DNA of 64,000 bases. It comes from Kribbella sp. ALI-6-A (GTDB lineage Bacteria; Actinomycetota; Actinomycetes; Propionibacteriales; Kribbellaceae). The DNA is taken from NCBI RefSeq assembly GCF_001984195.1, contig NZ_MTQN01000009.1:992001-1056000 (forward strand). The letters are read 5' to 3'. The notes below the pieces were generated by a model that saw only the letters and a list, made by a program, of their open reading frames with translations, was not told where the DNA came from and ran no database searches. Numbering within the stretch: position 1 is the stretch's first letter; the number at the start of each line of letters is the position of its first letter. Below are positions 13,797 to 40,002 of this stretch, one piece after another. Made by a program: the position numbers and the translations under genes.

Positions 13797-14558
13797 TCAT
13801 CTCTGGCCGGCCGGTCTGGCATACAGACTCTTGCCACCGCAGACGTAAAGTACCTGGCCGGTGATCGTGCGAGCATCCGGCTCGGCGAAGAACCGGGCTG
13901 CCCAGGCGACGTCCTCAGGTGCCCCCAGGGTGCCGGTCGGCTGTGCCTGCAGCAGTCGTTCCAGCACCTCGGCGGGTTCGTTGCGAAGCAGCGGGGTGTC
14001 GATCAGCCCGGGTGCCAGACAGTTCACGGTGATGCCGTACTTGGCCAGTTCGATCGCCAGTGATCGGGTAGCAGACACGACGCCACCCTTCGAGGTGGAG
14101 TAGGCCAACTGCCCGAACCATCCGAGCCACGCCCGGGACGCGATGTTGATGATGCGCCCGGTTTTGCGGGGGATCATGCTGGTGGCCGCTGCCTGCGAGC
14201 ACAGGAACACACCGGTCTGGTTGATCCCGATGGTCTTGTGCCACTCGTCGTCGGTGATGCGGCGGACGCCGCGGTCGATGCTGATCCCGGCGTTGTTCAC
14301 CAGGATGTCGACCGGTCCCAGCTCGGCCTCGGTCCGCGCGAAGAGTGCCTCGACCGCCGTTCGGTCGGAGACGTCGACCGGCAGCCCGACCGCGGTACCG
14401 CCGTCGGCCGAGATCCGCGCGGCGGCCGTGACGGCCCGGTCCTCGACGATGTCCGCGACAACAACCCTCGCTCCCGCGGCGGCGAACTCCTGCGCGATGG
14501 CCAGCCCGATACCGCTGGCTCCGCCGGTGATCACGGCTGTTTTTCCGTCCAGGCTCAT
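13797..14558 (-). CDS. SDR dehydrogenase, active subunit of a Bbs-like pair (BbsD-like)
   Basis: 253 residues with a complete SDR active site: TGGASGIGLAIAQEFAAAGA for cofactor, NNAG at 88-91, Ser141, Tyr153 and Lys157 (YSTSKGG). The C-terminus TITGQVLYVCGGKSLY resembles that of the neighbouring pseudo-SDR, suggesting that the two assemble. In the benzylsuccinate pathway an active BbsD pairs with an inactive BbsC to oxidise a 2-(hydroxyalkyl)succinyl-CoA to the ketone. It is the last gene of the eight-gene operon, 31 bp after the pseudo-SDR gene. The Bbs role is inferred. Confidence 0.85.
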   Translation of the reverse strand: MSLDGKTAVITGGASGIGLAIAQEFAAAGARVVVADIVEDRAVTAAARISADGGTAVGLPVDVSDRTAVEALFARTEAELGPVDILVNNAGISIDRGVRRITDDEWHKTIGINQTGVFLCSQAAATSMIPRKTGRIINIASRAWLGWFGQLAYSTSKGGVVSATRSLAIELAKYGITVNCLAPGLIDTPLLRNEPAEVLERLLQAQPTGTLGAPEDVAWAARFFAEPDARTITGQVLYVCGGKSLYARPAGQR

Positions 14559-14589
14559 GGTTTGTCCTTCGTGTGGTGGCAGGTCCGGG

Positions 14590-15204
14590 TCAGACGGACA
14601 GGCTGGACAGCAGGCTCGCGCCGCCGCAGCAATAGAGCACCTGGCCCGTGATGTAGCCGCTGCGGTCGTCCAGGAAGAACGCGACGGTCCGCGCGATGTC
14701 CTCGGCGGTCACGGCGTCCGGCGTCAGCTCGCTGGGTTCGGCCGCGGCGCGCGACGTGCCGGCCTCGGGTGGCACAGCCGCCACCACGTTGACCGTGACG
14801 CCGGCCGGGGCCAACTGGAGCGCGAGGCTGCGAGCGGCCGCGACGAGCGCGCCGGAGGCGGCGGCCGCGTGCGGCCGATCGGCCCAGCCGAGCCCGTCGC
14901 GGCTGCTGACCACGACGATTCTGGCGCCGCCCTCCGAGCTGGTCGGAAGCCGAGGGCGTACCGACTCGACGAGGTCGAAGAGCTGGTCGACGATCTGACC
15001 GGGACGAGCGCCGTCCGCCGAGGCGAGCAGTCCCGGCTCGTAGACCAGCCCGCTGATCGGGGCCTTCGGTACGACGGGGGTCCCCGTTGCGCGCTCGACG
15101 CGCCAGCCGGACGAGCGCAATCGTGACGCGATCGCGGCGGCGACCGGTGAGTCGGCGCCCGTCACGATGGCCGCCGGTTGTTCGGGGTGCTGCAGTGAGG
15201 TCAT
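14590..15204 (-). CDS. SDR-like pseudoenzyme (BbsC-like partner subunit)
   Basis: 204 residues, shorter than an active SDR. The glycine motif is degraded to TGADSPVAAAIA, the NNAG motif is missing, and where YxxxK is expected (about residues 113-120, PHAAAASGAL) both Tyr and Lys are replaced. The fold is still recognisable from ARSLALQLAPAGVTVNVVAA and the C-terminal YITGQVLYCCGGASLL, close to that of the adjacent active SDR. The frame is intact and GC-rich with no stops, so it is a maintained pseudoenzyme and not decay. A structural partner role is inferred. Confidence 0.8.
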   Translation of the reverse strand: MTSLQHPEQPAAIVTGADSPVAAAIASRLRSSGWRVERATGTPVVPKAPISGLVYEPGLLASADGARPGQIVDQLFDLVESVRPRLPTSSEGGARIVVVSSRDGLGWADRPHAAAASGALVAAARSLALQLAPAGVTVNVVAAVPPEAGTSRAAAEPSELTPDAVTAEDIARTVAFFLDDRSGYITGQVLYCCGGASLLSSLSV

Positions 15205-15218
15205 CGGATCGCTCTCGT

Positions 15219-16361
15219 TCAGGTCGTGGTGAGGATGTGGACAGCGCAGGCGCCGTTGTCCACACCGAAGATTCCGCCACCGGTCACGTGGGTGAGCGCC
15301 ACCTCGGCGCCCGGGACCTGGAGTTCCGCGGCCTCGCCGGTGAGTTGCCAGTACGCCTCGCAGATCTGCGTCACGCCGGTCGCGCCGACCGGGTGCCCGC
15401 GCGACAGCAGCCCACCGCTGGGACTGACCGCCACCCGTCCGTCGCGGTCGAAGTCGCCCGCGGCAACCGCTTTGAAAGCCTGGCCGCGGTCGGCGATGCC
15501 CAGTGCCTCGGCGTGCAGCAGCTCCGCCACGCTGAACGCGTCGTGCAGCTCGACCAGGTCCAGGTCAGCCGGGCCGATGCCGGCCACGTCGTACGCTGCT
15601 TGCGCGGTGCGTTCGGTGATGTCTGGCCAGGTCATGTCCCGGAACGAAGTGTGGAACCGGCCGGACCGCACCACGCTGGCCCGCATCCGGACCCGTGCCG
15701 TCGGGAGGTCCTTGGCGAAGTCCTCGGAGCAGAGCAGGACGGCTGCCGCGCCGTCGCTGTTCGGGCAGCAGTGCAGCAAACGCAACGGGTCGGCGATGGG
15801 CCGGGACTGCTCGACGTCATCGGGTGAGACCTCCCGCTGGAAGTGCGCGCGCGGATTGGCCGCACCGTTGCGCCGGTTCTTCACCGACACCCGGGTCAGG
15901 TCGTCGACGGTGGCCCCGAAGTCGTGCAGGTACCGCTGGGCCCGCATGGCGTACGCCGCCGGCATCACCATGCCCTGATCGATCTCGAGGTCGGCCGTGG
16001 TGAGCGGCAGGGTGCCGCCTCCGAAGGCCGACAGATTTTCCGTACCGAACGCGATCACGCAGTCGGCGGTGCCGGCGGCGATTGCCTGCCACCCCAGATG
16101 CACCGCCGAAGCGCCGCTGGCACAGGCGTTCTCGACGGTGAACACCGGCTGACCGGAGACACCGACACGCTGAAGGACGCGCTGCGCGAGCAGCGAGCCA
16201 CCGTACGTCGAACCACCGAAGCCGGTGTCGACCTGCTCGGGTGCAACCCCGGTCCGCGCGATCAGATCCTGCACGGCTCGGTAGCCGAGCTCGGCGGCGG
16301 GCAGATCGGGGTGCTTGCCGAACGGGTGGACGGCGGCGCCCGCCACGAAGACCGGCCTCAT
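15219..16361 (-). CDS. Thiolase family protein (BbsB-like, SCP2-type)
   Basis: 380 residues. The acyl-accepting Cys is C80 in VENACASGASAVHLG. ELHDAFSVAELL and SRGHPVGATGVTQICEAYWQ form the remaining active site, and HVTGGGIFGVDNGA is near the end. It belongs to the SCP2/lipid-transfer thiolase branch that works with a DUF35 partner. Its start overlaps the DUF35 stop as ATGA, so the two are translationally coupled, as in benzoylsuccinyl-CoA thiolase BbsAB. It would split a 3-oxoacyl-CoA using CoA; cytoplasmic. Confidence 0.88.
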   Translation of the reverse strand: MRPVFVAGAAVHPFGKHPDLPAAELGYRAVQDLIARTGVAPEQVDTGFGGSTYGGSLLAQRVLQRVGVSGQPVFTVENACASGASAVHLGWQAIAAGTADCVIAFGTENLSAFGGGTLPLTTADLEIDQGMVMPAAYAMRAQRYLHDFGATVDDLTRVSVKNRRNGAANPRAHFQREVSPDDVEQSRPIADPLRLLHCCPNSDGAAAVLLCSEDFAKDLPTARVRMRASVVRSGRFHTSFRDMTWPDITERTAQAAYDVAGIGPADLDLVELHDAFSVAELLHAEALGIADRGQAFKAVAAGDFDRDGRVAVSPSGGLLSRGHPVGATGVTQICEAYWQLTGEAAELQVPGAEVALTHVTGGGIFGVDNGACAVHILTTT

Positions 16362-16771
16362 CGCGCACCTCCGGCGGTCTCGGCGACGAGGTAGGAGGAG
16401 AACTCGCCGTTCTCGTCGGCGCCGATCGGTCCGACCCGCAGCGTGACCGGCGTACCGGGTGGGAGCGCCTCGAGCGCGTCCACGTGAGCCAGCACCCGTA
16501 CGTCACTGATGTCGACGTAGGCCAGGACGTAGGGCGGGCGAAACGCCGCAGGTCCGATGCGGACGACGGTGGAGGCGTAGGCGATGCCGTGGTCGGCGGT
16601 GGTCGTCTCTTCGGTGTCGGCCGATGCGCAGCTGGAGCACACGTCCCGCGGAGGGAACCAGGTGCTGCCGCAGTTGTGGCACTTGGTGATGGTGAGAGTG
16701 GCATGGTCACCGTCACGGTGGATCCATTCGCCGCCGATCACGCGAGCGTCGGGGATTGCTGGTGTGGTCAT
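16358..16771 (-). CDS. DUF35 OB-fold zinc-ribbon protein (BbsA-like thiolase partner)
   Basis: 137 residues from ATG 16771. A zinc ribbon with C31, C34, C45 and C48 (CHNCGSTWFPPRDVCSSC) is followed by an OB fold (RPPYVLAYVDISDVRVLAHV). DUF35 proteins bind acyl-CoA and form stable complexes with SCP2-type thiolases. The 4-base overlap with the thiolase gene supports a complex. The longer frame to 16822 adds residues without homology character. In the bbs operons the equivalent BbsA also precedes the thiolase gene. Confidence 0.87.
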   Translation of the reverse strand: MTTPAIPDARVIGGEWIHRDGDHATLTITKCHNCGSTWFPPRDVCSSCASADTEETTTADHGIAYASTVVRIGPAAFRPPYVLAYVDISDVRVLAHVDALEALPPGTPVTLRVGPIGADENGEFSSYLVAETAGGAR

Positions 16772-16796
16772 CTTCCGTCCTTGGTTTATTGGGCGA

Positions 16797-17600
16797 TCAG
16801 CGGCCGTGGTAGTCCGGAGCACGTCGCTGGGCGAAGGCGAGCCGGCCCTCGACCCGGTCTTCGGTGTCGCGCAGCAGGCCCCAGAGCAGTTGCTCGAGTT
16901 CGATCGACCCGCTCAGCGGAAGGTCGTCGGTGCGCATGGCCAGGGTTTTCAGGCTCTTGATCGCGAGCGGGCCGTTGGCCGCGATCCGGTCCGCGATCTC
17001 CAGCGCGGTGTCGAGCAGCCGATCCGTGGGTACGACGTCGCTCACGAGGCCGACGCGGTGCGCCTCGGTCGCGTCGATGCGGTCACCGGTCAGGATCATC
17101 TTCATCGCCACCGCCCGCGGTACCGCGCGCAGCAGCTTCGAGACCCCGCCGACCGCCGGCACGCTGGCCCACCGTGGTTCCGGCAGGCCGAAGGTCGCGT
17201 TCTGGCCGGCGATCCGCAGGTCGCAGTCGAGCGCGATCTCGGTTCCCCCACCCAGCGCGTGACCGTTCACCGCCGCGATCAGGGGTTTGTTGATCCGCAG
17301 CTGGCTGATCGTGATGGCCCGGACGTAGAGTCCCTCGTCCACACTGCGTTCGTAGGGGTCGAAGTAGGCGGCAGCGAACGGCGTCTCGGGCGGGGGTGTC
17401 TGCTTGAGGTCCGCGCCCGTGCAGAAGGCGCGGTCCCCCGTGCCGGTGAGGATTCCCACGGCCAGCTCAGGGTCGTCACGGAACTCGCGCAGGGCCTCGT
17501 TGAACGCGCGCATCGAGGCGGGGTCGAGGGCGTTGAGTGCGTCGGGCCGGTTGATCCGGACGACGAAGGTCCGGTCCCGGCGCTCGGTGTCGATCGTCAT
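16797..17600 (-). CDS. Enoyl-CoA hydratase/isomerase family protein (BbsH-like)
   Basis: 267 residues of crotonase fold. Oxyanion-hole segments are AFCTGADLKQ and HALGGGTEIALDCDLRIA. Both catalytic glutamates of hydratases are present (GGGTE and GLPEP), so it should hydrate an enoyl-CoA. An unusual 20-residue loop (PPPETPFAAAYFDPYERSVD) after the first oxyanion segment may shape the pocket. It starts next to the CoA-transferase stop and ends 25 bp before the DUF35 start. Confidence 0.9.
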   Translation of the reverse strand: MTIDTERRDRTFVVRINRPDALNALDPASMRAFNEALREFRDDPELAVGILTGTGDRAFCTGADLKQTPPPETPFAAAYFDPYERSVDEGLYVRAITISQLRINKPLIAAVNGHALGGGTEIALDCDLRIAGQNATFGLPEPRWASVPAVGGVSKLLRAVPRAVAMKMILTGDRIDATEAHRVGLVSDVVPTDRLLDTALEIADRIAANGPLAIKSLKTLAMRTDDLPLSGSIELEQLLWGLLRDTEDRVEGRLAFAQRRAPDYHGR

Positions 17601-17601
17601 G

Positions 17602-18822
17602 TCAGCCCACCACTCCTTCGTGTGCCAGGTCTTCGTACGCCGCGTCGCTCATCCCCAGCAGGTCGACGCAGACGGCACGGCTGTCCGCGCCGAGCAACGG
17701 GGCTGGACTGCGCAGCCGCCCAGGGGTCTCGGAGAGCCGGTAAGGGATACCGTCGTAGACGCTCGGACCCATCACGGGATGATCCAGCCGCACCCAGTGG
17801 TCGCGCGCACGCAACTGCGGATCGTGGTGGAGGACTCCCTCGGCATCTCGTACCGGTGCGGCCGGAACGCCCCGGTCCGCGAGCGCGGCAGCCAGTGTGT
17901 CGGCGTTCCACGCCACGGTCTCGGTCGCGAGCAGCGTGTCCAGCTCCCGGCGGGCGTTCCGCCGTCCATCCGGATTGGCGTACTCCGGACGCCGGGCCAG
18001 CGCCGGTGCCTCCAGCACATCGGTCAATGCCTTCCAGTGCTGGTCGGTGAAGACCCCGATCGCACACCACTCGTCGTCGCCCACACACGGATAGACGCCG
18101 TGCGGGGCGGCGATCGGATCGTCGTTGGCCATCCGCTCGGTGCTGTGTCCCGCCGCGGCGGCGAGCAGGGCAGGGCCGATGGCATTGACAGTGGATTCCA
18201 GCTGAGCCAGCTCGATGTACTCGCCCCGCCCGGTACGACGCCGGTTGCGCAGCGCGGCGAGGACCGCGATCGCGCCGTGCAAGGGATTCGGTACGTGGTC
18301 CGGGTAGTTCGTGCCGGTGCCGACGGGCGGTCGATCGGGATACCCGGACAAGCCGAGCAGTCCACCGGCGGCGGCGATGGTGAGGCCGTAACCGCGAAAG
18401 TCGCGATGTGGCCCGCTGACCCCCTGCATGGGCATTTCGAGATAGATGATCTCCGGAGTCCGCCGGCGGACGGTCTCGTAGCCGAGGCCCAGCCGGTCCA
18501 TCGTCCCGGGGGTGTAGTTGTTGGCGACCACGTCGCTGCGGGCGATCAGCTCCAGGGCGATCCGCCGGCCCTCCGGGTGCTTCAGATCGAGGCAGATCGA
18601 GCGCTTGCTCGAGTTGCGGTTGGCGAAGTAGCCGCTGCGGTCGGGCCCGGGTTCGCCGTCGCGGAACGGTGCCATCCAGCGGATCGGATCGGTCCGGGTC
18701 CGCGACTCGATCTTGATCACGTCGGCACCGTGGTCGGCCAGCGGCTTGGTGAGGAACGGCCCGGCCCCGACCCAGGTGAAGTCGGCCACCCGTACACCGT
18801 CGAGAGGCAGCGCGGTCGTCAT
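17602..18822 (-). CDS. Family III CoA-transferase, subunit lacking the catalytic Asp (BbsE-like)
   Basis: 406 residues, CaiB/BaiF type. The N-terminal Rossmann part (VRVADFTWVGAGPFLTKPLA) and the NNYTPGTMDRLGLGYE motif are intact. At the position of the formyl-CoA transferase nucleophile (PGYDL in active enzymes) it reads RGYGLTIA, Gly at about residue 146, so it should not form the acyl anhydride itself. Its ATG overlaps the stop of the next CoA-transferase gene by 4 bases. The pair is best read as an obligate heteromer that activates a dicarboxylate with CoA. Confidence 0.85.
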   Translation of the reverse strand: MTTALPLDGVRVADFTWVGAGPFLTKPLADHGADVIKIESRTRTDPIRWMAPFRDGEPGPDRSGYFANRNSSKRSICLDLKHPEGRRIALELIARSDVVANNYTPGTMDRLGLGYETVRRRTPEIIYLEMPMQGVSGPHRDFRGYGLTIAAAGGLLGLSGYPDRPPVGTGTNYPDHVPNPLHGAIAVLAALRNRRRTGRGEYIELAQLESTVNAIGPALLAAAAGHSTERMANDDPIAAPHGVYPCVGDDEWCAIGVFTDQHWKALTDVLEAPALARRPEYANPDGRRNARRELDTLLATETVAWNADTLAAALADRGVPAAPVRDAEGVLHHDPQLRARDHWVRLDHPVMGPSVYDGIPYRLSETPGRLRSPAPLLGADSRAVCVDLLGMSDAAYEDLAHEGVVG

Positions 18823-20000
18823 GCTCGTGTCCTTTCGTGCTCCGGTGTCCCTGAGCGTCGTGGTTCGGCGCCGGCGGCGACCGCCGGTTCGCCCGAACGC
18901 GGCCCGACCGGCGCCCCGGCGAACCGATACGGCGGGCCGGGGCAGAGCAGTTGCTCGCCGTCGACCGAGATCGGGACGAAGAACCCCCGCTCGGTCAGTT
19001 GCGGACTCGCGAGCAGATCTGCCGGGGTGGCGACCGGCGCGATGCTCACCCCGCGGCTCTGACCGGCCTCGTAGAGCTCCTGCTTCGTCCCGCTGCGCGC
19101 GGCGCGCTCGAAGATCGAGCGGAAGATGCGGCTGGCCTCGCTGCTGCGTCGCCAGGACCGCTCCTGCCACTGCGGACCGAGCAGCGTCTCCGCCTCGGCG
19201 ATGCCCTGGTCGAGAAGCCAGTTGACGAGAGCCGGCCAAGCGAGCGGGCGACCGCCCAGCCCACCAACCAGGTAGACCCAGCCGTCGGCACAGCGGAAGA
19301 GACCCGTGCCGGCTTCCACTGGGCCGGCACCGGCTCGTCGCCGGACGGAGCCCTCGAGGTCCAGGTACTGCACGGCGTTCTCCAGCGAGTGCGCGACGGC
19401 CTCCTGTGCTGACAGGTCGACCACCTGGCCGCGTCCGGTGGACTCCAGCGACAGGAGGGCGATCAGCGCGGCGGTGGCCGCGTGGGTCCCGGCGATGACC
19501 GCGGTTTGATCACCCCAGGCACGAACCGGCTCGCGATCGGGGTCCCCGGCCAGCGCGAGCAATCCGCCCGCCGCCAGCAGGGTCAGATCGCTCGCCGGCC
19601 GGTCGGCGTACGGGCCGGTCAGCCCGTAGGGGCTGATCGAGACGTGAACGAGGGCGGGGTTGCGCTGGGTGGTGTCGCCCGGGTGCAGTCCGCGAGCCGA
19701 CAGCGCGGCCGGGCCTTCGCTGGTGAGCAGCAGATCGGCGGTACCAATGACGGACGCGACGTCGACGTCGGCTTCGCTGACGATGCGTTTGCCGGCCTCC
19801 ATGAACGCCCAGTTCAGGCTCAGGCCCGACTGGGACAGCGGCGGCCGGTGCCGTTCGGGCCTCTCGGTGACCGGTTCGACCCGGATCACTTCGGCGCCGA
19901 GATCGCTGAGCAGCCGGCCGGTGTAAGCGCCGAGCGAGGTGGTGAGATCGACGACTCGCACATCGTCGAGTGGCCCCCGGCAACGGTTGGGGTCGGTCAT
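18819..20000 (-). CDS. Family III CoA-transferase, subunit with catalytic Asp (BbsF-like)
   Basis: 393 residues from ATG 20000. YADRPASDLTLLAAGGLLAL places an Asp at about residue 138 where the family nucleophile sits. In contrast its VENFRPG-equivalent segment is degraded to LLLTSEGPAALSARG. The neighbouring subunit shows the opposite pattern of losses. The longer frame to 20075 overlaps the transporter gene and is rejected. It starts 3 bases after the transporter stop. Donor is probably succinyl-CoA, by analogy only. Confidence 0.86.
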   Translation of the reverse strand: MTDPNRCRGPLDDVRVVDLTTSLGAYTGRLLSDLGAEVIRVEPVTERPERHRPPLSQSGLSLNWAFMEAGKRIVSEADVDVASVIGTADLLLTSEGPAALSARGLHPGDTTQRNPALVHVSISPYGLTGPYADRPASDLTLLAAGGLLALAGDPDREPVRAWGDQTAVIAGTHAATAALIALLSLESTGRGQVVDLSAQEAVAHSLENAVQYLDLEGSVRRRAGAGPVEAGTGLFRCADGWVYLVGGLGGRPLAWPALVNWLLDQGIAEAETLLGPQWQERSWRRSSEASRIFRSIFERAARSGTKQELYEAGQSRGVSIAPVATPADLLASPQLTERGFFVPISVDGEQLLCPGPPYRFAGAPVGPRSGEPAVAAGAEPRRSGTPEHERTRA

Positions 20001-20002
20001 CG

Positions 20003-21337
20003 TCACCACCAGCCCGTCGACACGAGGAGCGCCCAGGTGAGGAGTGGGGCGACCAGGACCAAGCTGAATCCCCACACCATCAGGCGCCGGTAGACGAGCG
20101 CCTGTTGCTCGGCCGGAGAGTTGGCCACCACCAGCGCCCCGTTCGTCGAGAACGGACTGGAGTCGACCACCGACGCCGAGATCGACAATGCGGTGACCAG
20201 GCCGATCGCGCCGACCTCGCCGGAGGCCAGCAGCGGGACAGCGAGCGGGATCAGGGCACCGAGAATGCCGGTCGTGGAGGCGAAGGCGGACACGACAGCG
20301 GCGATGAAGCAGACGACGAGCGCGGCGAGCACAGGTGCGGAGATGGAGAGGATGCCGTCACCCAAGTAGCGCACCGTGCCGGCCGACTCCAGCAGACCGA
20401 CGTACGTGACGATGCCGCAGATCAGCAGCACCACTCCCCAGCTCACCTGACCGAGTGCGTCCTTCGCACCGGCCGGGGCCAGCAGCGCGACGAGGACGGC
20501 CACCGACAACGCGAGCAGCCCGATGTCGAGATCGAAGACGAGCGATCCCAGCACGAGCCCGGCCAGGCCGAGGGCGGTGATGGTGCGGTCACGGTCGAGG
20601 CTGACGGTGCGGCTCGACGCGGGCGTCCTGGTGGCGAGGCCGCCGGCTGGCCCCCCGGCGGCCGGTGGGCTCGCGGTGGGGTCGGCGTGGGACAGGTCGG
20701 TGGCTGGGTCGTCGTCGCACCGGCGCCGTTCGCGCAGCAGTTTCAAGCCGCCGAAGGCGCAGTAGATGACGACACCGAGCAGGACGTTGAAGATCGCGTT
20801 ACCAAGGAACAGCGCGGTCGGGTTGCCGGGCAGTTGGCTGCGCTCAACGATGCCGTTGGCAATCACGCCGAGCACCCCGAGCGGGGAGAAGTTTCCCGCC
20901 GCGGAGCCGTGCACCACCATGAGGCCCATCAGCAGCGGGCTGATGCCGTACCGCACGCCGAGTGCCATGCCGATCGGCGCGATGATCGCCACCGCGGCGG
21001 GGCTGAGCGCACCGAAGGCCACCAGGACCCCGCTGAGCACGAACATCACCCAGGGGATCGCCGCCACATGGCCGCGCACCGCCCGGACGGCCCAGTGAAC
21101 GAGCCAGTCGATGGTGCCGTTGTTCTTCGCGATCGCGAACAAGTAGGTGACCCCGACGAGGATCACGAACAGACTCGCGGGAAAGCCGTCGAGCACGGCG
21201 GAGGTGTCCTTGCCGAACACCCAGGTCCCGACCAGGAACGTCGCGACGAGCGCGAGGGCGCCGAGGTTGAGCGACCGGACGGTGCCGATCAGGAAGATCA
21301 CCGCAAGAACCAGGATCGAGACGAGATGGGGAGACAT
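20003..21337 (-). CDS. MatC/SLC13-type dicarboxylate carrier
   Basis: 444 residues with about 11-12 hydrophobic helices. The N-terminal half resembles the MatC_N dicarboxylate carrier family (LSILVLA-type first helix, then GALSPAAVAIIAPIGMALGV). The second half repeats it with STTGILGALIPLAVPLLASG and ISASVVDSSPFSTNGALVVA. A charged cytoplasmic loop with RERRRCDDDP separates the halves. ATG 21337 has AAGGAG 6 bases upstream; the frame to 21382 lacks one. It is the first gene of the operon and would import the carboxylate that the enzymes degrade. Confidence 0.85.
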   Translation of the reverse strand: MSPHLVSILVLAVIFLIGTVRSLNLGALALVATFLVGTWVFGKDTSAVLDGFPASLFVILVGVTYLFAIAKNNGTIDWLVHWAVRAVRGHVAAIPWVMFVLSGVLVAFGALSPAAVAIIAPIGMALGVRYGISPLLMGLMVVHGSAAGNFSPLGVLGVIANGIVERSQLPGNPTALFLGNAIFNVLLGVVIYCAFGGLKLLRERRRCDDDPATDLSHADPTASPPAAGGPAGGLATRTPASSRTVSLDRDRTITALGLAGLVLGSLVFDLDIGLLALSVAVLVALLAPAGAKDALGQVSWGVVLLICGIVTYVGLLESAGTVRYLGDGILSISAPVLAALVVCFIAAVVSAFASTTGILGALIPLAVPLLASGEVGAIGLVTALSISASVVDSSPFSTNGALVVANSPAEQQALVYRRLMVWGFSLVLVAPLLTWALLVSTGWW

Positions 21338-21380: not shown

Positions 21381-21484
21381 ACTTCGTATTTCCGATGCAG
21401 ACTTCGTGTTCTCGAAGTTAACTGCAGAGCATTGGAAGGTCAAGAGTTCGACTTCGAGTACACGCAGCGAACTTCGAAATCTCG
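21381..21484. promoter_or_regulatory. Phased operator array, putative IclR sites
   Basis: Four copies of ACTTCG-N6-CG begin at 21381, 21401, 21451 and 21471. The spacings of 20, 50 and 20 bases put all copies on about the same face of the helix. The copy at 21401-21418 is a perfect inverted repeat (ACTTCG-TGTTCT-CGAAGT). The array fills the 200-base gap between the divergent transporter operon and the IclR gene, so it most likely binds the IclR protein. Confidence 0.65.
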
Positions 21485-21536
21485 GACCGTTGCGCGCTAA
21501 GATCAGGCCAGACCTGTTCCCTGAAGGCTGCGAGGC

Positions 21537-22358
21537 GTGATGAACTCGGCCCGGTTGGACAGAGCGCTGAAGATCCTGGAATACCTGGGGCATCACCAGG
21601 AGGGAGCGGCGCTCAAGCGCATCTGTGACGATCTGGCGATCCCGATGAGCAGTGCGCACGATCTGCTGCACGCATTGGTGGAGATCGGAGCGGTCCGCCT
21701 GGCCGATCAGCGCACCTACCTGCTCGGGCCGCGCTCACTGGTGCTCGCGCTGTCGATCGTCGACGCGGTCGACCTTCGGCACATCAGCCGGCCGTTTCTG
21801 ATCGAGCTGTGTGAGGAGCTGAACGAGAACACCTACCTCGCGGTGCGCAGTGGCAACACGGTCACCTACGCCGACCGTTACGAGGCCGGCCAGACCCTCT
21901 CGGTCGTGATGAAGCTCGGCGGACCGCGGCCGCTGCACGGGTCGAGCGTCGGCAAGCTGATCGCGGCGTACAACTCCGACCTGGAAACGCGATTGCTGAA
22001 CGCTCCGGCACTCGAGCAGTTCACCCCGTTCACTCACACGAACCGCGCCGAGCTCCGCACCGAACTGGCCAACATCCGGTCCCGGGCGTACAGCGTGAGC
22101 GACGGTGAGAGCGTCGAAGGAATCATCGGGCTGGCCACGCCGATCACCGATGCCGCGGGCGTGGTCGCTGCCGCGGTCCATGTGTCTGCTCCGCGCGGAC
22201 GGCTTGCCTCCGATCGGCTTCCCCAGGTGCTGGCCGCGATGTCGCGGACCGCGGCGCTGATCTCCGCACAGCTCGGAGCTCCGGAGACGGCGGTGCACGC
22301 GAAGGAACTGCCGGAGATCGTCTCTTCCGAGGCGCAACGAGTGGCTGCGACCGGATGA
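21537..22358 (+). CDS. IclR-family transcriptional regulator
   Basis: 273 residues. The winged HTH is at residues 5-65 (LDRALKILEYLGHHQEGAAL and LAIPMSSAHDLLHALVEIGA). The effector domain contains GPRPLHGSSVGKLIAAYNSD and SDGESVEGIIGLATPITDAA as usual. It reads divergently from the Bbs-like operon across the operator array and is the obvious regulator of it, with the CoA ester or free dicarboxylate as a likely inducer. GTG 21537 and ATG 21540 are adjacent alternatives. Confidence 0.92.
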   Translation: MMNSARLDRALKILEYLGHHQEGAALKRICDDLAIPMSSAHDLLHALVEIGAVRLADQRTYLLGPRSLVLALSIVDAVDLRHISRPFLIELCEELNENTYLAVRSGNTVTYADRYEAGQTLSVVMKLGGPRPLHGSSVGKLIAAYNSDLETRLLNAPALEQFTPFTHTNRAELRTELANIRSRAYSVSDGESVEGIIGLATPITDAAGVVAAAVHVSAPRGRLASDRLPQVLAAMSRTAALISAQLGAPETAVHAKELPEIVSSEAQRVAATG

Positions 22359-22446: not shown

Positions 22447-23622
22447 CTACGTCGATCTGTTCCGACCACTCGAATGCGCTTCTGGTCCCTCGTCATGGAT
22501 CGGCCCCGTCAGCTGCGCGAGCGGGGAGGCGGTTGCGCCGGTACGGTGGGCCAGAATTTCGGCGGCGATACTGATGGCGGTCTCCTCGGGAGTGCGAGCG
22601 CCGAGGTCGAGACCAATGGGCGCGGACAGGCGGCTCAGTTCTGCCGTGGTGAGGCCTTCGGCGCGCAGCCGGGCCAAGCGGTCGGCGACGGTACGGCGCG
22701 AACCCATCGCGCCGACGTAGGCCGGTTCCGGCAAGCGCAGGGCCACCTCGAGCAAGGGGATGTCGAACTTCAGGTCGTGGGTGAGCGCACAGAGCACTGT
22801 CCGGGAGTCCAAGCGGCCGCCGTCGGCCTCGGCTCGAAGGTAGCGGTGCGGCCAGTCGACGACCACCTCGTCGGCAGCGGGAAAGCGGGCCGGGGTGGCG
22901 AAGATCGCGCGGGCGTCGCAGACCGTCACCCGGTAGCCGAGGAACGCACCGGCCGTGCTGAGCGCGGCCGCGAAGTCGATGGCGCCGAAGACGAGCATCC
23001 GCGGTGGCGGCGCGAAGGACTCCACAAAGATCTCGAGCCCTTCACCGAGCCGTTGCCCCGAATCGCCGTACCTCAGGGTCGAGTTCTTGCCCAGGGCAAG
23101 CAGGCCGCGCGCGTCGGCGGTGACCACCGCGTCCAGGCAGGGATCGCCGAGTGTGCCGGTCCCCCCGGGTGGTGGCTCGGCCCCTGCAGGGCGCACGACA
23201 AGGTGGCGACCGAGGCGGTCGTGGAGGCGGTCCGCTGTGACCACGGCGACGGCGACGGGCCGGCCGGACGCCACATCGGCGGCGACGCCGGACAGCTCGG
23301 GGAACGACTCGGCGTCGACGCGCCGGACGAAGATGTCGATCAGGCCGCCGCAGGTCAGTCCGACCGAGAACGCCGTCTCGTCGCTGTAGCCGTATTTCTC
23401 CAGTGTCGGGCGGCCTGAGGCGATCACCTCCTGCGCGACGTCGTACACAGCACCCTCGACGCAGCCGCCGGAAACCGAGCCGACGGCCACGCCCTCCGGA
23501 CCCACCAGAAGCGCCGCACCAGGGGAACGCGGCGCGGACGACGACGTGGCCACCACGGTCGCTACCCCGACCGAGTGGCCGGCTTCCCACCAGCCGAGGA
23601 GCTCGTTCAGAACGTCACGCAT
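22447..23622 (-). CDS. XdhC/CoxI-family molybdenum-cofactor chaperone (PaoD-like)
   Basis: 391 residues. The N-terminal XdhC domain holds SSSAPRSPGAALLVGPEGVA, SVSGGCVEGAVYDVAQEVIA and GLTCGG. The C-terminal Rossmann domain has RMLVFGAIDFAAALSTAGAF and YVGAMGSRRTVADRLARLRA. The family sulfurates and inserts Mo cofactor into hydroxylases. ATG 23622 overlaps the end of the MocA-like fragment by 8 bases. The longer frame to 23658 is not preferred. It converges with the IclR gene. Confidence 0.9.
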   Translation of the reverse strand: MRDVLNELLGWWEAGHSVGVATVVATSSSAPRSPGAALLVGPEGVAVGSVSGGCVEGAVYDVAQEVIASGRPTLEKYGYSDETAFSVGLTCGGLIDIFVRRVDAESFPELSGVAADVASGRPVAVAVVTADRLHDRLGRHLVVRPAGAEPPPGGTGTLGDPCLDAVVTADARGLLALGKNSTLRYGDSGQRLGEGLEIFVESFAPPPRMLVFGAIDFAAALSTAGAFLGYRVTVCDARAIFATPARFPAADEVVVDWPHRYLRAEADGGRLDSRTVLCALTHDLKFDIPLLEVALRLPEPAYVGAMGSRRTVADRLARLRAEGLTTAELSRLSAPIGLDLGARTPEETAISIAAEILAHRTGATASPLAQLTGPIHDEGPEAHSSGRNRST

Positions 23623-23803
23623 CGGAGAAGTTCCGATCCAGCCCCGAGGCGCGGTCACAACACTCGACCGGAGCGCACCCTGCGCTACCGAGATAGGTGA
23701 CCGCGCCCCGGTCTCCGCTCGACGCCGAGGCCACGGCTGTCCAATGGTCCCGCTCGAGGAACACCGGATGCCCGGGCCTGCCGCCGTACGATGCGCTGGT
23801 CAT
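23615..23803 (-). pseudogene. C-terminal fragment of a MocA-like cytidylyltransferase
   Basis: 62 residues reading SYGGRPGHPVFLERDHW, then SSGDRGAVTYLG, then APVECCDRASGLDRNFSD. These are the last segments of MobA/MocA nucleotidyltransferases (YGGRRGHPV, GDxGA, and a degraded ...GxDxDTPxD tail). The N-terminal NTP-binding GGxxxRMG part is absent: the preceding gene's stop is 20 bases upstream. An ATG with a GGAAGC upstream is present, so a short protein may still be made, coupled to xdhC. It is probably a remnant of the MocA gene normally paired with XdhC. Confidence 0.65.
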
Positions 23804-23822
23804 GCTGCTTCCGCACCCGGAG

Positions 23823-26030
23823 TCACAGCAGCGTGTCGAGGGTGATCGGCAGCGAACGAATCCGCCGGCCTGTCGCGTGATAGATCGCGTTCGCGATGGC
23901 GGCGGCGACGCCGACCAGGCCGACCTCGCCGACTCCCTTGGTGCCCAACGGAGTCCCGCGATCGGGTGCGCCGACGAACACCACGTCGAGGTCGGGAACG
24001 TCGCCGTTCACCGGGATCAGGTAGTCGCCGAACGTCGCGTTGGCGATGCGGCCCGTGCCCGCATCGGTGACCGTGTCCTCGAACAGGGCCTGGCCGATAC
24101 CGCCCACCGTACCGCCGACGATCTGACTGCCGGCCGTCTTCTCGTTCAGGATCCGTCCACCGTCGATCACCGACACGATTCGCGTGACGCGGACGAGTCC
24201 CAGATCGGCGTCCACTCGGACCTCGACGAACTTCGCGCCGAACGCACCCGCCAAGGCCATCCCCAGATCAGCTGCCTTGCCCGGGTCGCTGGCTCCGTCC
24301 GCTGTCAGTTCGGTGAGGTTGTGCCGCGCGAGAATGTCCGCGTAGGTCTCACCTTCCAGCGGCGCGTCCAGGCGGTGGATCCGGCCGTCCTCGACCGCCA
24401 CATCGGCCCGGGTGCAGCCCCGCAGCGGCGACATCTCGTCCTCGTGTACGAGTGTCAGGAAAGAGTCGAGGAGCTGCCGGCACGCGTCCTGGACGGCGTT
24501 GCCCAGCGCGCTGGTCAGCCCCGAACCACCGGCCTGGGGCGCGATCGGCATGTCGGAGTCGCCGAGGTCGAAGCGAACCCGGTCGAGCGGAAGTCCGAGG
24601 GACTCCGCGGACACCTGTGTCATGACCGTGTAGGTGCCGGTGCCGAGGTCGGCCGCCGCGCTGCGCACGTAGCCGTTGCCGTCGGCGCTGATCGTCGCGC
24701 GGGCCTGGCAGGGCGCCTGGTACCACGGGTAGCTGACGCCCGCCACGCCGTACCCGATCAGCCAGTCGCCATCACGCCTCGACCGCGGCTCCGGACTCCG
24801 CTGGGACCAGCCGAACCGTTCGGCCCCCACCTCGAAGCACTCCCGCAAGGCTTTGCTGCTCCAGGGCAGTTCGGCCTCCGGGTTGATCTCCGCGTAGTTC
24901 CGCAGCCGGATCTCCAGTGGATCGACGCCCACCGCATAGGCGAGCTCATCGATGATCGACTCCAGGGCGAAGTTGCCCTGCGCCTCGGCGGGTCCACGCA
25001 TGGAGGTGGGGTTCGGGATGTTCAGCCGCGCCTGCCGGTCCCTGGTGAGGACGTTCGGGCAGGCGTAGGCCACCGCCGAGCCCGCCGCGAGAGGCTCGTA
25101 GTCGTCGTCCTCCATCGCCACCGCGGACAGGCTGCGGTGCTCCAGCGCAACGAGCTCGCCGGTCGCGGTGGCGCCGACCTTGATGTGCTGGACGCCCTCG
25201 GGCCGGTGGCCGACCGAGGTGAACATCTGCGGGCGGGTGAGGACCAGCTTGACCGGCCGCGCGAGGGTCCGCGCGGCGAGCACGGTGAGGATGACGTGGG
25301 GCCAGGCGCGCAGTCCGTTGCCGAAGCCGCCGCCGATGAAGGGGACGTGCACCCGCACGGAATCCTCAGGCACCTTGAACACCTGCGCCATGGTGGCCCG
25401 CACCATCGAGGGCCACTGCGTCGAATCGTGCAGGGTGAGACGGTCGCCGTCCCAGTGCGCCAGCGTGCAGAAAAGACCGAGGGGATTGTTGGTGTTGTCC
25501 GGCGTGGTGAAGGTGCCTTCCACTACCACCTCCGCCGAAGCCATTGCCACCGCAACGTCACCCCTTTGGGTGTCGAGGCCCCACGGATTGTCGAGGATCT
25601 GTGCCCGGGGGTCGTCGAGGTCCAGCACCGCCTCGTCCGCCTGGTACTCCGCAGTCACCAGGCGGGCGGCGTCTGTCGCCTGCTCGGCGGTCTCCGCGAC
25701 CACGATGGCGATGTGCTGGCCGTGGTGCAAAATGCGGTCGTCCTGAAGGGGCGGTGGCGGGGACGCACCCAGCCCGGTCATCGGCCCTCGGTCCAGCCTG
25801 GGCGCGTTGAGATGTGTGATGACGGTCAGTACGCCGGGCGCGTCCTCGGCAGCACTGGTGTCGATCCTGGTGATCCGCCCCGCTGCGATGGTGCTCTGGA
25901 CCAGGGCGGCGTGCGCCTGGCCGGGCACGTCGAAGTCGGACGGGTAGTGCGCCTGGCCTGAGACCTTGAGCGGGCCGTCGACCCGGTTCAACGCCGCACC
26001 GACCAGCGGCCGGCTCTGGGTGGCGGTCAC
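23823..26030 (-). CDS. paoC: Molybdopterin-binding subunit of aldehyde oxidoreductase (PaoC-like)
   Basis: 735 residues from GTG 26030, which overlaps the stop of the FAD subunit as GTGA. The N-terminal domain starts VGAALNRVDGPLKVSGQAHY. GGGFGNGLRAWPHV and MRGPAEAQGNFALESIIDEL contact the cofactor, and VGEVGLVGVAAAIANAIYHA supplies the catalytic Glu. DGDWLIGYGVAGVSYPWYQA and DLGTGTYTVMTQVSAESLGL place it near YagR/PaoC among xanthine-dehydrogenase-family proteins. It would oxidise an aldehyde or aromatic substrate to the acid, with electrons leaving via the other two subunits. Confidence 0.88.
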   Translation of the reverse strand: MTATQSRPLVGAALNRVDGPLKVSGQAHYPSDFDVPGQAHAALVQSTIAAGRITRIDTSAAEDAPGVLTVITHLNAPRLDRGPMTGLGASPPPPLQDDRILHHGQHIAIVVAETAEQATDAARLVTAEYQADEAVLDLDDPRAQILDNPWGLDTQRGDVAVAMASAEVVVEGTFTTPDNTNNPLGLFCTLAHWDGDRLTLHDSTQWPSMVRATMAQVFKVPEDSVRVHVPFIGGGFGNGLRAWPHVILTVLAARTLARPVKLVLTRPQMFTSVGHRPEGVQHIKVGATATGELVALEHRSLSAVAMEDDDYEPLAAGSAVAYACPNVLTRDRQARLNIPNPTSMRGPAEAQGNFALESIIDELAYAVGVDPLEIRLRNYAEINPEAELPWSSKALRECFEVGAERFGWSQRSPEPRSRRDGDWLIGYGVAGVSYPWYQAPCQARATISADGNGYVRSAAADLGTGTYTVMTQVSAESLGLPLDRVRFDLGDSDMPIAPQAGGSGLTSALGNAVQDACRQLLDSFLTLVHEDEMSPLRGCTRADVAVEDGRIHRLDAPLEGETYADILARHNLTELTADGASDPGKAADLGMALAGAFGAKFVEVRVDADLGLVRVTRIVSVIDGGRILNEKTAGSQIVGGTVGGIGQALFEDTVTDAGTGRIANATFGDYLIPVNGDVPDLDVVFVGAPDRGTPLGTKGVGEVGLVGVAAAIANAIYHATGRRIRSLPITLDTLL

Positions 26031-27016
26031 GATGACACCTCCGTCACGTTCTGCAGGGTTCGTACCAACGTCCGCTGGGCCAGTTCGACCTTGAACGCGG
26101 TCCCCGGGACCGTCCAGGCCCCGGCGAGCGCCGCGGCGGCTGCCGCTCGATACGTTTCGACCGCCGGCGGGGCACCGATCAGCACCTCTTCGGCCGACCT
26201 GGCCCGCCACGGCTTCGATCCGACCCCACCCAGACCGATCCGGGCGTCCTGGATCACGCCGTCCTCGATGACGAGCGCGACCCCGGCCGACACCAGCGCG
26301 AACTCGTAGGAGACCCGGTCACGGACCTTGAGGTATCCCGACCTCGCGCCTTCAGGGAGCAGCGGGATCTCGATGCCGGTGATCAGTTCGCCGTGGGCCA
26401 GCATGTTCTCAGCCACCGGGTCCTCGGCCGACTCCAGATAGAACTCCGTCAACGGAACGCTGCGCCGACCCTGGTCGCCTTGGATGCGGACGACGGCGTT
26501 CAACGCCACCAGCGCGACCGCGACGTCGGAAGCGTGCAGCGCGATACACCGGTCGCTCACACCGAGAATGGCGTGCATCCTGGCAGCGCCGGTGACAGCG
26601 GCACAGCCTGAGCCGGGTGACCGCTTGTTGCAGGCCGGCACGGACGGGTCACGGAAGTAGCGGCAACGCGTTCGCTGCAGCAGATTCCCACCGATCGTGG
26701 CCATGTTGCGGAGCTGGGTCGAGGCTCCGAGCAACAGCGCCTCACGCACGATCGGAAGCCGGGCGACGACCGTGGGGTCGGCCGCCAGTTCCTCCATCGT
26801 GGTCAGGGCGCCGACATGGATCGTGTCCGGGCCGTGCTCGATACCGTGCAGCGGAAGACGGGTGATGTCGACCAGCCGCTCCGGAGCCAGCACACCGTCC
26901 TTCATCAGGTCGACCTGAGTCGTGCCGCCTGCCAGGTAGGAAGCGAACGGGTCGTCGGTCACCGTTGCCACAGCGGCATCGACGTCTGCCGCGCGGACGT
27001 ACTCAAAGGCGCGCAT
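26027..27016 (-). CDS. paoB: FAD and [4Fe-4S] subunit of aldehyde oxidoreductase (PaoB-like)
   Basis: 329 residues from ATG 27016 with GGGAGG upstream. FAD-binding motifs are LAGGTTQVDLMKDGVL and STQLRNMATIGGNLLQRTRC. An inserted cysteine segment (C118, C129, C138 and C157; CRYFRDPSVPACNKRSPGSG) corresponds to the extra [4Fe-4S] site known in E. coli PaoB and absent from ordinary xanthine dehydrogenases. The gene overlaps the Fe-S subunit gene by 14 bases and the Mo subunit by 4, so the complex is co-translated. Confidence 0.88.
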   Translation of the reverse strand: MRAFEYVRAADVDAAVATVTDDPFASYLAGGTTQVDLMKDGVLAPERLVDITRLPLHGIEHGPDTIHVGALTTMEELAADPTVVARLPIVREALLLGASTQLRNMATIGGNLLQRTRCRYFRDPSVPACNKRSPGSGCAAVTGAARMHAILGVSDRCIALHASDVAVALVALNAVVRIQGDQGRRSVPLTEFYLESAEDPVAENMLAHGELITGIEIPLLPEGARSGYLKVRDRVSYEFALVSAGVALVIEDGVIQDARIGLGGVGSKPWRARSAEEVLIGAPPAVETYRAAAAAALAGAWTVPGTAFKVELAQRTLVRTLQNVTEVSS

Positions 27017-27539
27017 CGGAACCTCCCTCGGACGCAACCTGCCGGATCGCCGCGACGATGTTCGGATAGGCGCCGCAGCGGCACAGGTTGCCGCTCATGA
27101 ACTCGCGGATCTCAACGTCCGTTCTCGTCCGGCCCTCCTCGAGCAGTGCGACCGCCGACATGATCTGGCCAGGAGTGCAGTAGCCGCACTGGAAACCGTC
27201 GTGGTCGACGAACGCCTTCTGCAGCGGGTGCGGTTCGCCGTCACGGCCCAGGCCGTCGATCGTCGCCACCTCTCGTCCCTCGCATTGGGCGGCCAGGGTC
27301 AAGCAGGCCAGAACCCGTTTGCCGTCCACGTGCACCGTGCACGCCCCGCAGGCGCCCTGGTCGCACCCCTTCTTGGTGCCGGTGAGACCCAGCCGGTCTC
27401 GTAACGCGTCCAGCAGGGTCACGCGGGGATCTGCCGACACGGTGCGCTGCTCCCCGTTGACCGTCAGCGTTGTGGTGACTTCGGAGACGGTCCGCGGCGC
27501 ACCCGCACCCGTCGTCTGTACATCAGGTACATGGGTCAT
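27003..27539 (-). CDS. paoA: [2Fe-2S] subunit of aldehyde oxidoreductase (PaoA-like)
   Basis: 178 residues. The plant-type cluster uses C59, C64, C67 and C79 (KGCDQGACGACTVHVDG); the second cluster has FQCGYCTPGQIM and GNLCRCGAYPN. E. coli PaoA carries a Tat signal; here the N-terminus (MTHVPDVQTTGAGAPR) has no twin-arginine, so the enzyme should be cytoplasmic. ATG 27539 is the first gene of the paoABC-mocA'-xdhC operon. The longer frame to 27851 is not protein-like. Confidence 0.9.
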   Translation of the reverse strand: MTHVPDVQTTGAGAPRTVSEVTTTLTVNGEQRTVSADPRVTLLDALRDRLGLTGTKKGCDQGACGACTVHVDGKRVLACLTLAAQCEGREVATIDGLGRDGEPHPLQKAFVDHDGFQCGYCTPGQIMSAVALLEEGRTRTDVEIREFMSGNLCRCGAYPNIVAAIRQVASEGGSDARL

Positions 27540-38781: not shown

Positions 38782-38880
38782 CACAAGCTATTTCAGCTCA
38801 GCCGACGTCTTCCCCAGCAGCCGCCGCGCCACGATCAGCTGCTGGATCTGTTGGGTCCCCTCGAAGATGTCCAGGATCTT
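38782..38880. repeat. Right copy of fadE 3' end (putative attR)
   Basis: Direct repeat of 31508-31606, in the same orientation and 7274 bases away. It contains the stop codon (38788-38790, minus strand) and last codons of the intact acyl-CoA dehydrogenase gene. The longest identical tracts are 18 bases each (starting CACAAGCTATTTCAGCTC and ACGTCTTCCCCAGCAGCC). Confidence 0.75.
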
Positions 38881-40002
38881 CGAATCCCGAGCCCACTTCT
38901 CCAGCAGCTCGTGTTCGGAGTAGCCGAGGGAGCCGGCCAGTTCCACGCAGCGCAGGGTGATGTCGTTGGCGGCGCGGCCGGCCTTGGCCTTGGCCATGGA
39001 GGCCTGCAGGGAGTTGGGCCGCGCGTTGTCCGCCATCCACGCGGCCTGCAGCGTCAGCAGGTACGCCGCCTCCCAGTCGGCCTCGAGTTCCACGAACGTC
39101 GCGGCCGCGGCCGGCTGCAGATGGGTCGGGCGGTCGTAGTCGATCTCGACTCCGGCCTCCGCCAGCAGCTCACGAGTGAGCTCCAACGAAGCCCGCGCGC
39201 AGCCGACAGCCATGGCGGCGACCAGGGGCCGGGTGTTGTCGAAGGTCTGCATGACGCCCGCAAAGCCCTTGTCGGGATCGACTTCGGGAGAGCCCAGCAG
39301 GTTCTCGGCGGGCACGCGGCAGTTGGTGAGGCGAATGGTCGCGGTGTCGGACGACCGGATGCCGAGCTTGTGCTCGACCCGCTCGACCGTCAGCCCTGGC
39401 GTCTCCTTCGGTACGACGAACGGCTTGATCGCCGCCCGGCCCAGCGACTTGTCGACCGTGGCCCAGACGACCACCGCGTCGCAGCGGGCGCCGGCGGTGA
39501 CGAAGATCTTCTCGCCGTCGAGCACGTAGTGGTCGCCGTCGCGGCGGGCCGTGGTCTGGATGTTCGCCGAGTCCGAACCGCAGCCGGGCTCGGTGATCGC
39601 CATCGCGGCCCATACCCCGTCGAAGCGGCGCAACTGCTCGTCGGAGGCGACCGACGCGATCGCCGAGTTGCCCAAGCCCTGCCGCGGCATCGACAGCAGC
39701 AGGCCGACGTCGCCCCAGCACATCTCCATGATCGACAGCACCGACGACAGGTTGGAGCCGTTCTTCACTCGGCCACTGTCGTCGTCAGCGTCAGTACGCC
39801 GTACGCCGCTCGCTCCCGCCCCCGACCCCGTCCCGCTCGCGCCCAGGCCGTCGACGAGAGCGGCCAGCAGGTCGAGCTCCTTCGGATACTCGTGCTCGGC
39901 CAAGTCGTAGCGCCGCGAGTTCGGCCGCAACATCTCGGCCGCGACCTGGTGCGCCTGGTTGACGAAGGTACGGAACTTCCGGGGAACTTCCAGGTTGATC
40001 AT
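38788..40002 (-). CDS. fadE: Acyl-CoA dehydrogenase (FadE-type), island integration target
   Basis: 404 residues from ATG 40002, which overlaps the upstream gene's stop as ATGA. Motifs: MAITEPGCGSDSANIQTTAR (flavin/substrate signature), GEKIFVTAGARCDAVVVWAT, and the C-terminal SKILDIFEGTQQIQQLIVAR with the catalytic-type Glu. A Gly/Ser/Ala-rich loop (GASGTGSGAGASGV) separates early helices. It would oxidise acyl-CoA to enoyl-CoA with FAD. Its last 31 codons form the right island repeat. Confidence 0.9.
   Translation of the reverse strand: MINLEVPRKFRTFVNQAHQVAAEMLRPNSRRYDLAEHEYPKELDLLAALVDGLGASGTGSGAGASGVRRTDADDDSGRVKNGSNLSSVLSIMEMCWGDVGLLLSMPRQGLGNSAIASVASDEQLRRFDGVWAAMAITEPGCGSDSANIQTTARRDGDHYVLDGEKIFVTAGARCDAVVVWATVDKSLGRAAIKPFVVPKETPGLTVERVEHKLGIRSSDTATIRLTNCRVPAENLLGSPEVDPDKGFAGVMQTFDNTRPLVAAMAVGCARASLELTRELLAEAGVEIDYDRPTHLQPAAAATFVELEADWEAAYLLTLQAAWMADNARPNSLQASMAKAKAGRAANDITLRCVELAGSLGYSEHELLEKWARDSKILDIFEGTQQIQQLIVARRLLGKTSAELK

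Follow-up and report, generated by a model that had tools for sequence, protein, structure and literature searches.

The window analyzed here, a stretch of 64,000 nucleotides from Kribbella sp. ALI-6-A (contig NZ_MTQN01000009.1, positions 992,001 to 1,056,000), carries an operon resembling the gene set of the Bbs pathway of anaerobic toluene degradation (BbsABCDEFGH). Eight open reading frames (ORFs) on the minus strand, named after their Bbs counterparts except for a transporter, T, span positions 13797-21337 in the order T-E-F-H-A-B-C-D (Table 1). They are separated by gaps of 31 (D/C), 14 (C/B), -4 (B/A), 25 (A/H), 1 (H/F), -4 (F/E), and 2 bp (E/T), and an ORF and Pfam check found that a first-pass annotation, made from the sequence alone, had given the gene list, the strand, and the gap range of -4 to 31 bp accurately. 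The G+C content is 69.9% in the operon and 68.8% in the window, an unremarkable composition. As in the Bbs pathway, a putative heteromeric class III coenzyme A (CoA)-transferase (E and F) is combined with a hydratase (H), a short-chain dehydrogenase/reductase (SDR) and a pseudo-SDR (D and C), and a DUF35 protein with a thiolase (A and B); the A-B-C-D gene order, the BbsCD motifs, and the catalytic residues are also common to both. In contrast to the Bbs loci, the operon is without BssABC and BbsG, belongs to a clade of its own with about 40-47% identity to the Bbs subunits, includes a carrier and an IclR-family regulator (R), and encodes a pseudo-SDR that is about 40 residues shorter.

Table 1. 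Operon genes, operators, and adjoining genes in the window
Feature	Position	Strand	Basis or remark
D: BbsD-like active-type SDR, predicted 3-hydroxyacyl-CoA dehydrogenase subunit, 253 amino acids (aa)	13797..14558	-	PDB match, SRAWLG, Y-x-x-x-K
C: BbsC-like pseudo-SDR partner, 204 aa	14590..15204	-	Pfam, PDB match, motifs, AlphaFold model
B: BbsB-like thiolase; Cys, HDAF, and GHP catalytic residues	15219..16361	-	Profile and PDB matches, alignment
A: BbsA-like DUF35 zinc-ribbon/OB protein, putative thiolase partner; four Cys (CxxC...CxxC)	16358..16771	-	Pfam, PDB, alignment
H: predicted enoyl-CoA hydratase, both crotonase glutamates in place	16797..17600	-	Pfam ECH_1, alignment
F: BbsF-like class III CoA-transferase subunit of predicted catalytic type, Asp in YPDH	17602..18822	-	PDB match, tree, alignment
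E: BbsE-like CoA-transferase partner, probably non-catalytic	18819..20000	-	PDB match, alignment
T: predicted MatC/CitMHS-type dicarboxylate carrier	20003..21337	-	Pfam MatC_N and CitMHS
Bipartite operator 1: two RYTTCG-N6-CGAARY palindromes 20 bp apart, presumed IclR site	21381..21418		Pattern search
Bipartite operator 2, weaker, 3 mismatches	21451..21488		Pattern search
R: IclR-family regulator, divergent from T	21537..22358	+	Profile matches
Molybdenum aldehyde-oxidoreductase genes (XdhC-like, PaoC-like, flavin adenine dinucleotide (FAD), and PaoA-like), convergent with R	22447..27539	-	Pathway membership uncertain

Operon products related to the Bbs proteins

Pfam profiles identified a full-length SDR in D and only the C-terminal half of one in C, a thiolase in B, ECH_1 in H, CoA_transf_3 in both E and F, and MatC_N together with CitMHS in T; A matched a ChsH2-type zinc ribbon above the cut-off and an OB fold at 25.1 bits, under the cut-off of 27.1. 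The top sequence matches in the PDB were BbsF for F (3.1e-98), BbsB for B (3e-82), BbsD for D (1.1e-67), and BbsE for E (7.2e-62). C matched BbsD first (1.1e-14) and BbsC second (8.7e-13), and the first match of A was the methanogen DUF35 protein of 6esq (7.8e-9), followed by BbsA (1.4e-7). Since the scores with the curated BbsA and BbsB models of NCBI stayed far under the cut-offs (52.4 bits against 250 and 312.3 bits against 750, respectively), A and B are, on these scores, relatives of BbsA and BbsB and not orthologues by the curated-model standard. The A-B-C-D order, which the first-pass annotation had likened to that of the toluene pathway, is indeed found in the Aromatoleum bbs loci L081 and L091.

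Alignments showed that the catalytic residues of B and H listed in Table 1 are intact. We take the two glutamates of H to play the roles usual in crotonases, and the roles given to the catalytic residues of the other subunits are likewise partly our assumption. The Asp of F is kept in 80 of 80 family rows. The scan of a genome collection that underlies the comparison retained 80 of 229 F relatives, so other members may exist. Because the matching position in E varies between D, N, and E among relatives, E is probably non-catalytic. A CoA-transferase with both a BbsE-like and a BbsF-like subunit and with the catalytic Asp in F, a feature of the Bbs pathway, therefore appears to be present at this locus.

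A rare operon conserved in an actinobacterial clade

In a quick tree of F proteins (87 rows, namely, the 80 family members and seven paralogues from the window's own genome, with L061 and L088 dropped for their short matches), the window and nine further loci formed one 10-row clade with a Shimodaira-Hasegawa approximate likelihood ratio test (SH-aLRT) support of 100, apart from 15 canonical Bbs rows. The B proteins of these loci also formed one well-supported clade in a thiolase tree, in which eight background rows (Amycolatopsis thiolases) sat on long branches. The first-pass annotation had suggested looking for the same gene set in other actinomycetes, and these nine loci (L012-L019 and L086), from eight actinobacterial genomes, provide it: the hosts belong to Arthrobacter, Nocardioides, Amycolatopsis, Streptomyces, and Prauserella, genera known as aerobes, and to two metagenome bins. 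E, F, H, A, and B occur in all nine, C, D, and R in all eight that are long enough, and T in five; the ninth, L017, is a 3.8-kb contig too short to judge C, D, R, or bbsG. E is set apart on the opposite strand in L018 and L086, where it adjoins R. The gene set is rare as judged by F: of 396 genomes in the phylum, that of the window alone had it at E<=1e-145, and at E<=1e-90 it was present in 2 of 147 relatives, namely, the window's genome and a second one from the same order. A search of the open literature, with few subscription journals covered, turned up no report of an operon of this type in actinomycetes.

The SDR pair provided further signs of kinship. D carries both SRAWLG and Y-x-x-x-K, and C has lost the catalytic Tyr and Lys and misses about 40 residues of its Rossmann half; by these motifs, the pairing of an SDR with an inactive SDR partner seen in BbsD and BbsC appears to be present. 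SRAWLG was found in all nine clade D proteins, 15 of 15 canonical BbsD, 12 of 13 Bacillota SDRs, and none of the ten nearest other SDRs of the window's genome. Similarly, an xCGG tail ends all nine D and all nine C proteins of the clade, all 30 canonical C and D proteins, and 12 of 13 Bacillota proteins (0 of 10 for the own-genome SDRs). In a careful C/D tree, from which the rows of 12 loci were left out, the C proteins of the clade grouped with BbsC (support 94/86), and a common origin of these pseudo-SDRs is favored; a grouping of the clade's C with its own D was not rejected (approximately unbiased test, p-AU 0.41), nor was one of D with BbsD (p-AU 0.213). An AlphaFold model of C (predicted local distance difference test score, pLDDT, 80.4) retrieved FabG at Foldseek ranks 1 and 2 and BbsC at rank 3. 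Since FabG is placed above BbsC, the modeled fold of C indicates an SDR and no more. As a separate observation, Tyr and Lys are retained in both SDRs of the Bacillota bbs-like operons L048, L052, L056, L057, L065, and L077; in contrast to the pseudoenzyme BbsC, both look active.

A bipartite operator at the clade loci

The gap between R and T holds palindromes of the form ACTTCG-N6-CGAAGT, and two of them 20 bp apart make up the bipartite operator pattern. We searched eight genomes for this pattern with up to 3 mismatches, using the reversed pattern as a control and leaving out G545. The search returned 14 sites, 11 of them at clade loci, and 0 for the control. Two of these sites lie in the R-T gap of the window, one each at L012, L013, L014, L015, L016, and L019, two at L018 (in the E/R gap and in the gap between a hydroxyacid-dehydrogenase operon and F), and one at L086, in the same gap before F. 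Arthrobacter ISL-28 has the remaining three, of which one is 2.5 kb away from the copy at L014 and precedes two small genes, a second is at the end of a contig, and a third lies elsewhere. In the window's genome, the paired operator occurs only between R and T, with no other gene under it. Because single palindromes did not outnumber their control in most genomes, only the paired site is informative by this count; a single perfect palindrome precedes a transporter and an aldehyde dehydrogenase gene in Streptomyces. R, found in eight of the nine further loci (L017 being the ninth), is presumed to act through the bipartite operator as its predicted site.

Two side observations concern the Arthrobacter sites. 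In the region L014:3387-4919, the extra operator near the L014 copy precedes a small gene that looks DUF336/GlcG-like by eye and an SDR gene. In ISL-28, one contig ends just past an operator (L160:7972-8009) and another starts inside an aldehyde dehydrogenase gene (L101:1), and the two may be neighbors.

The Bbs-like gene set put forward in the first-pass annotation is thus borne out by the PDB top matches, the SDR motifs, the thiolase residues, and conservation at nine further actinobacterial loci. On sequence grounds, the operon is a real, conserved, and specifically regulated Bbs variant.

Lack of bbsG and a proposed entry point

No PFL-type glycyl-radical enzyme (PF02901, the family of benzylsuccinate synthase, the oxygen-sensitive entry enzyme of the toluene pathway) was found in the one genome searched, that of the window (0 of 1), and no bbsG-like gene lies in the window's operon or in the further clade loci (L017 being too short to judge), in agreement with the first-pass annotation, which had reported both enzymes missing. 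Since a bbsG match of at least 40% was found at 32 of 81 related loci, including 14 of 15 canonical ones (the contig of the fifteenth ends first), the lack of bbsG is, in this comparison, a trait of the clade. As no member of the clade would thus have the BbsG step, the second of the pathway, the most straightforward interpretation is an acid that is unsaturated on entry.

We consider it slightly better than an even chance (about 0.52) that this is a Bbs-type catabolic operon entered after the BbsG step, converting an alpha-alkylidene or alpha-arylidene succinate into succinyl-CoA and an acyl-CoA. In the reactions and order that we infer, T would import the acid, R-CH=C(COO-)-CH2-COO-, E/F would move CoA from succinyl-CoA onto it, and H would hydrate the double bond. 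The C/D pair would then oxidize the alcohol to a 3-oxoacyl-CoA, which A/B and CoA would cleave into R-CO-SCoA and succinyl-CoA, the latter priming the next round. A BbsG-type acyl-CoA dehydrogenase would not be required, and the regulator would either repress or activate the operon via the bipartite operator. If this is true, chemistry of anaerobic hydrocarbon degradation also serves usually aerobic actinomycetes, for natural or man-made dicarboxylic acids, and an SDR pair with a pseudoenzyme and a DUF35 thiolase have been retained despite the loss or replacement of one dehydrogenase step. The operon, the regulator, and the operator offer a direct handle for finding the substrate.

Several relatives would probably obtain the free unsaturated acid from a saturated or aldehyde precursor, through two enzymes whose genes share the operator, an aldehyde dehydrogenase and a TcuA-like flavoprotein. 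Beside F, the Amycolatopsis and Prauserella loci (L018 and L086) carry a divergent operon for a D-2-hydroxyacid dehydrogenase, an aldehyde dehydrogenase, and such a flavoprotein. The best model for the L018 flavoprotein is that of the tricarballylate dehydrogenase TcuA (NF006130), at 350.5 bits, below the NCBI cut-off of 369, and among proteins of solved structure it comes closest to fumarate reductases and ketosteroid dehydrogenases. The aldehyde dehydrogenase/flavoprotein pair recurs at contig ends in both Arthrobacter genomes (66-77% identity), preceded in one of them by the tail of a hydroxyacid dehydrogenase gene, and L011 has a related pair (flavoprotein 46%) next to E and F genes of more distant kinship. 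Relatives at E<=1e-100 were found in 5 of 396 actinobacterial genomes (49-55% identity), as against 4 of the 9 genomes with the operon at 61% or more. As a side observation, genes for a D-2-hydroxyacid dehydrogenase 35-42% identical to that of L018 stand beside E/F genes in the proteobacterial loci L027, L028, L029, L034, L040, L044, L045, and L046.

Weighing the proposed pathway against its rivals

Several points weigh against entry after the BbsG step. The D proteins were not joined to BbsD in trees, the thiolase tree did not join the clade to BbsB specifically, and the operator pattern was derived from the same intergenic regions that it then scored. The window's genome gave no TcuA-like match at E<=1e-40, and it encodes, far from the operon, an acyl-CoA dehydrogenase 40% identical to BbsG. 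Moreover, a missing bbsG is no proof of an unsaturated substrate, as another acyl-CoA dehydrogenase may serve.

The first-pass annotation had proposed that the dehydrogenase comes from elsewhere; a saturated alkyl- or aryl-succinate would then be taken up and activated, and the BbsG step would fall to an acyl-CoA dehydrogenase of general type encoded at another place in the genome. The BbsG relative, two unrelated-looking acyl-CoA dehydrogenases encoded at 38788-41321, and the fact that beta-oxidation dehydrogenases of general type can be shared are all compatible with this proposal. However, BbsG relatives at E<=1e-50 were found in five of the nine genomes with the operon and not in the other four (some of the genomes being drafts), no acyl-CoA dehydrogenase is encoded in any clade locus, as opposed to the bbsG matches at related loci given above, and the window's genome has no copy of the operator outside the R-T gap. 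We thus regard a saturated substrate as unlikely, and the first-pass annotation as having identified the family correctly but probably not the point of entry. Its alkyl- or aryl-succinate is also weakened in the aryl part: in a search for the benzoyl-CoA route that covered the epoxidase BoxB only, BoxB was found in two of the nine genomes, the window's not among them, and its absence from the other seven speaks mildly against a benzoyl product.

Alternatively, the same beta-oxidation could act on a 2-substituted, 2,3-unsaturated or 3-hydroxy acid that is not a succinate, with succinyl-CoA as a mere CoA donor or not involved. Class III CoA-transferases, hydratases, and thiolases are versatile, the identity to the Bbs subunits is modest, and the BbsA and BbsB cut-offs were not reached. 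Yet DUF35, the pseudo-SDR, E, and F, all of them partners specific to Bbs, recur as a set, a MatC-type dicarboxylate carrier is part of the operon, and related loci encode MmgE/PrpD, PrpF, and TcuA-like proteins, families that PMC12290011 connects with branched di- and tricarboxylates, which makes a non-succinate substrate quite improbable.

A biosynthetic condensation of an acyl-CoA with succinyl-CoA would have a precedent in E. coli, where the bbs set run backwards yields benzylsuccinate, according to PMC10818641. Such a direction is very improbable for an operon headed by an importer and an IclR regulator, in a clade where dehydrogenases of upstream oxidation stand under the same operator in two genera.

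Finally, degradation of steroid side chains or rings by a DUF35/Ltp2-type enzyme would share the DUF35 and SCP2-type thiolase folds with this operon. We rejected this candidate and give it hardly any weight. B has the thiolase Cys, HDAF (within LHDAFS), and GHP and not the Tyr motif (YDHF/YDCY) of Ltp2/Sal described in PMC12329534, and it is the only SCP2-type thiolase of the genome at E<=1e-15. A placement in clades of steroid catabolism, which the first-pass annotation had named as evidence against its proposal, was accordingly not observed.

Possible thiolase and aldolase forms in the wider E/F family

The steroid aldolases Ltp2/Sal, which share a thiolase fold and a DUF35 partner with A/B, are retro-aldol enzymes with a Tyr motif, in contrast to B with its thiolase residues; the Tyr-type motifs are again taken from PMC12329534. 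We compared 50 thiolase-like proteins of loci related to the operon through E and F. In all 29 whose loci have a BbsCD-type SDR pair, the catalytic residues, Cys among them, are intact. Among the 21 without an SDR pair, 14 lack Cys, HDAF, and GHP and have a YDNF-type motif like that of the Ltp2/Sal aldolases (L020, L023, L027-L029, L031, L036, L038, L040-L042, L044, L051, and L054), six from Paraburkholderia/Trinickia keep Cys with HDAS, and that of L045 was unaligned there. Because thiolase residues are lost and an Ltp2/Sal-like motif is present, the SDR-less relatives are suggested to cleave by a retro-aldol reaction, and the coupling of thiolase residues with the SDR pair supports thiolysis as the predicted last step in the window's operon.

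Itaconate degradation (PMC12290011) resembles the proposed pathway in that a substituted succinate or itaconate is broken down aerobically, with a CoA-transferase as the first enzyme. The present operon differs in being without citramalyl-CoA lyase or MmgE/PrpD and would end in SDR oxidation and thiolysis. By Pfam, none of its eight genes encodes a citramalyl-CoA lyase, the RipC/CitE-like gene of the window lying 26 kb away at 47863-48690. That gene adjoins one for another class III CoA-transferase (47863-49848), an arrangement reminiscent of itaconate degradation. MmgE/PrpD was confirmed in the E/F loci L034 and L088 and PrpF in L027.

More tentatively, and with some doubt, the BbsEF family may be the core of a widespread, mostly aerobic cleavage of branched dicarboxylates, of which toluene degradation is one branch. 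It would come in a thiolase form with C/D and an aldolase form without C/D and with a Tyr-type, Ltp2-like enzyme, and the clade of the window would represent a thiolase form, which either accepts acids that are already unsaturated or, in place of the BbsG step, has a fumarate-reductase-like flavoprotein introduce the double bond into the free acid.

Neighboring aldehyde oxidoreductase genes

No bipartite operator was found at the PaoABC/XdhC-like genes (22447-27539). These genes for a molybdenum aldehyde oxidoreductase adjoin R, and other clade loci have an aldehyde dehydrogenase gene nearby.

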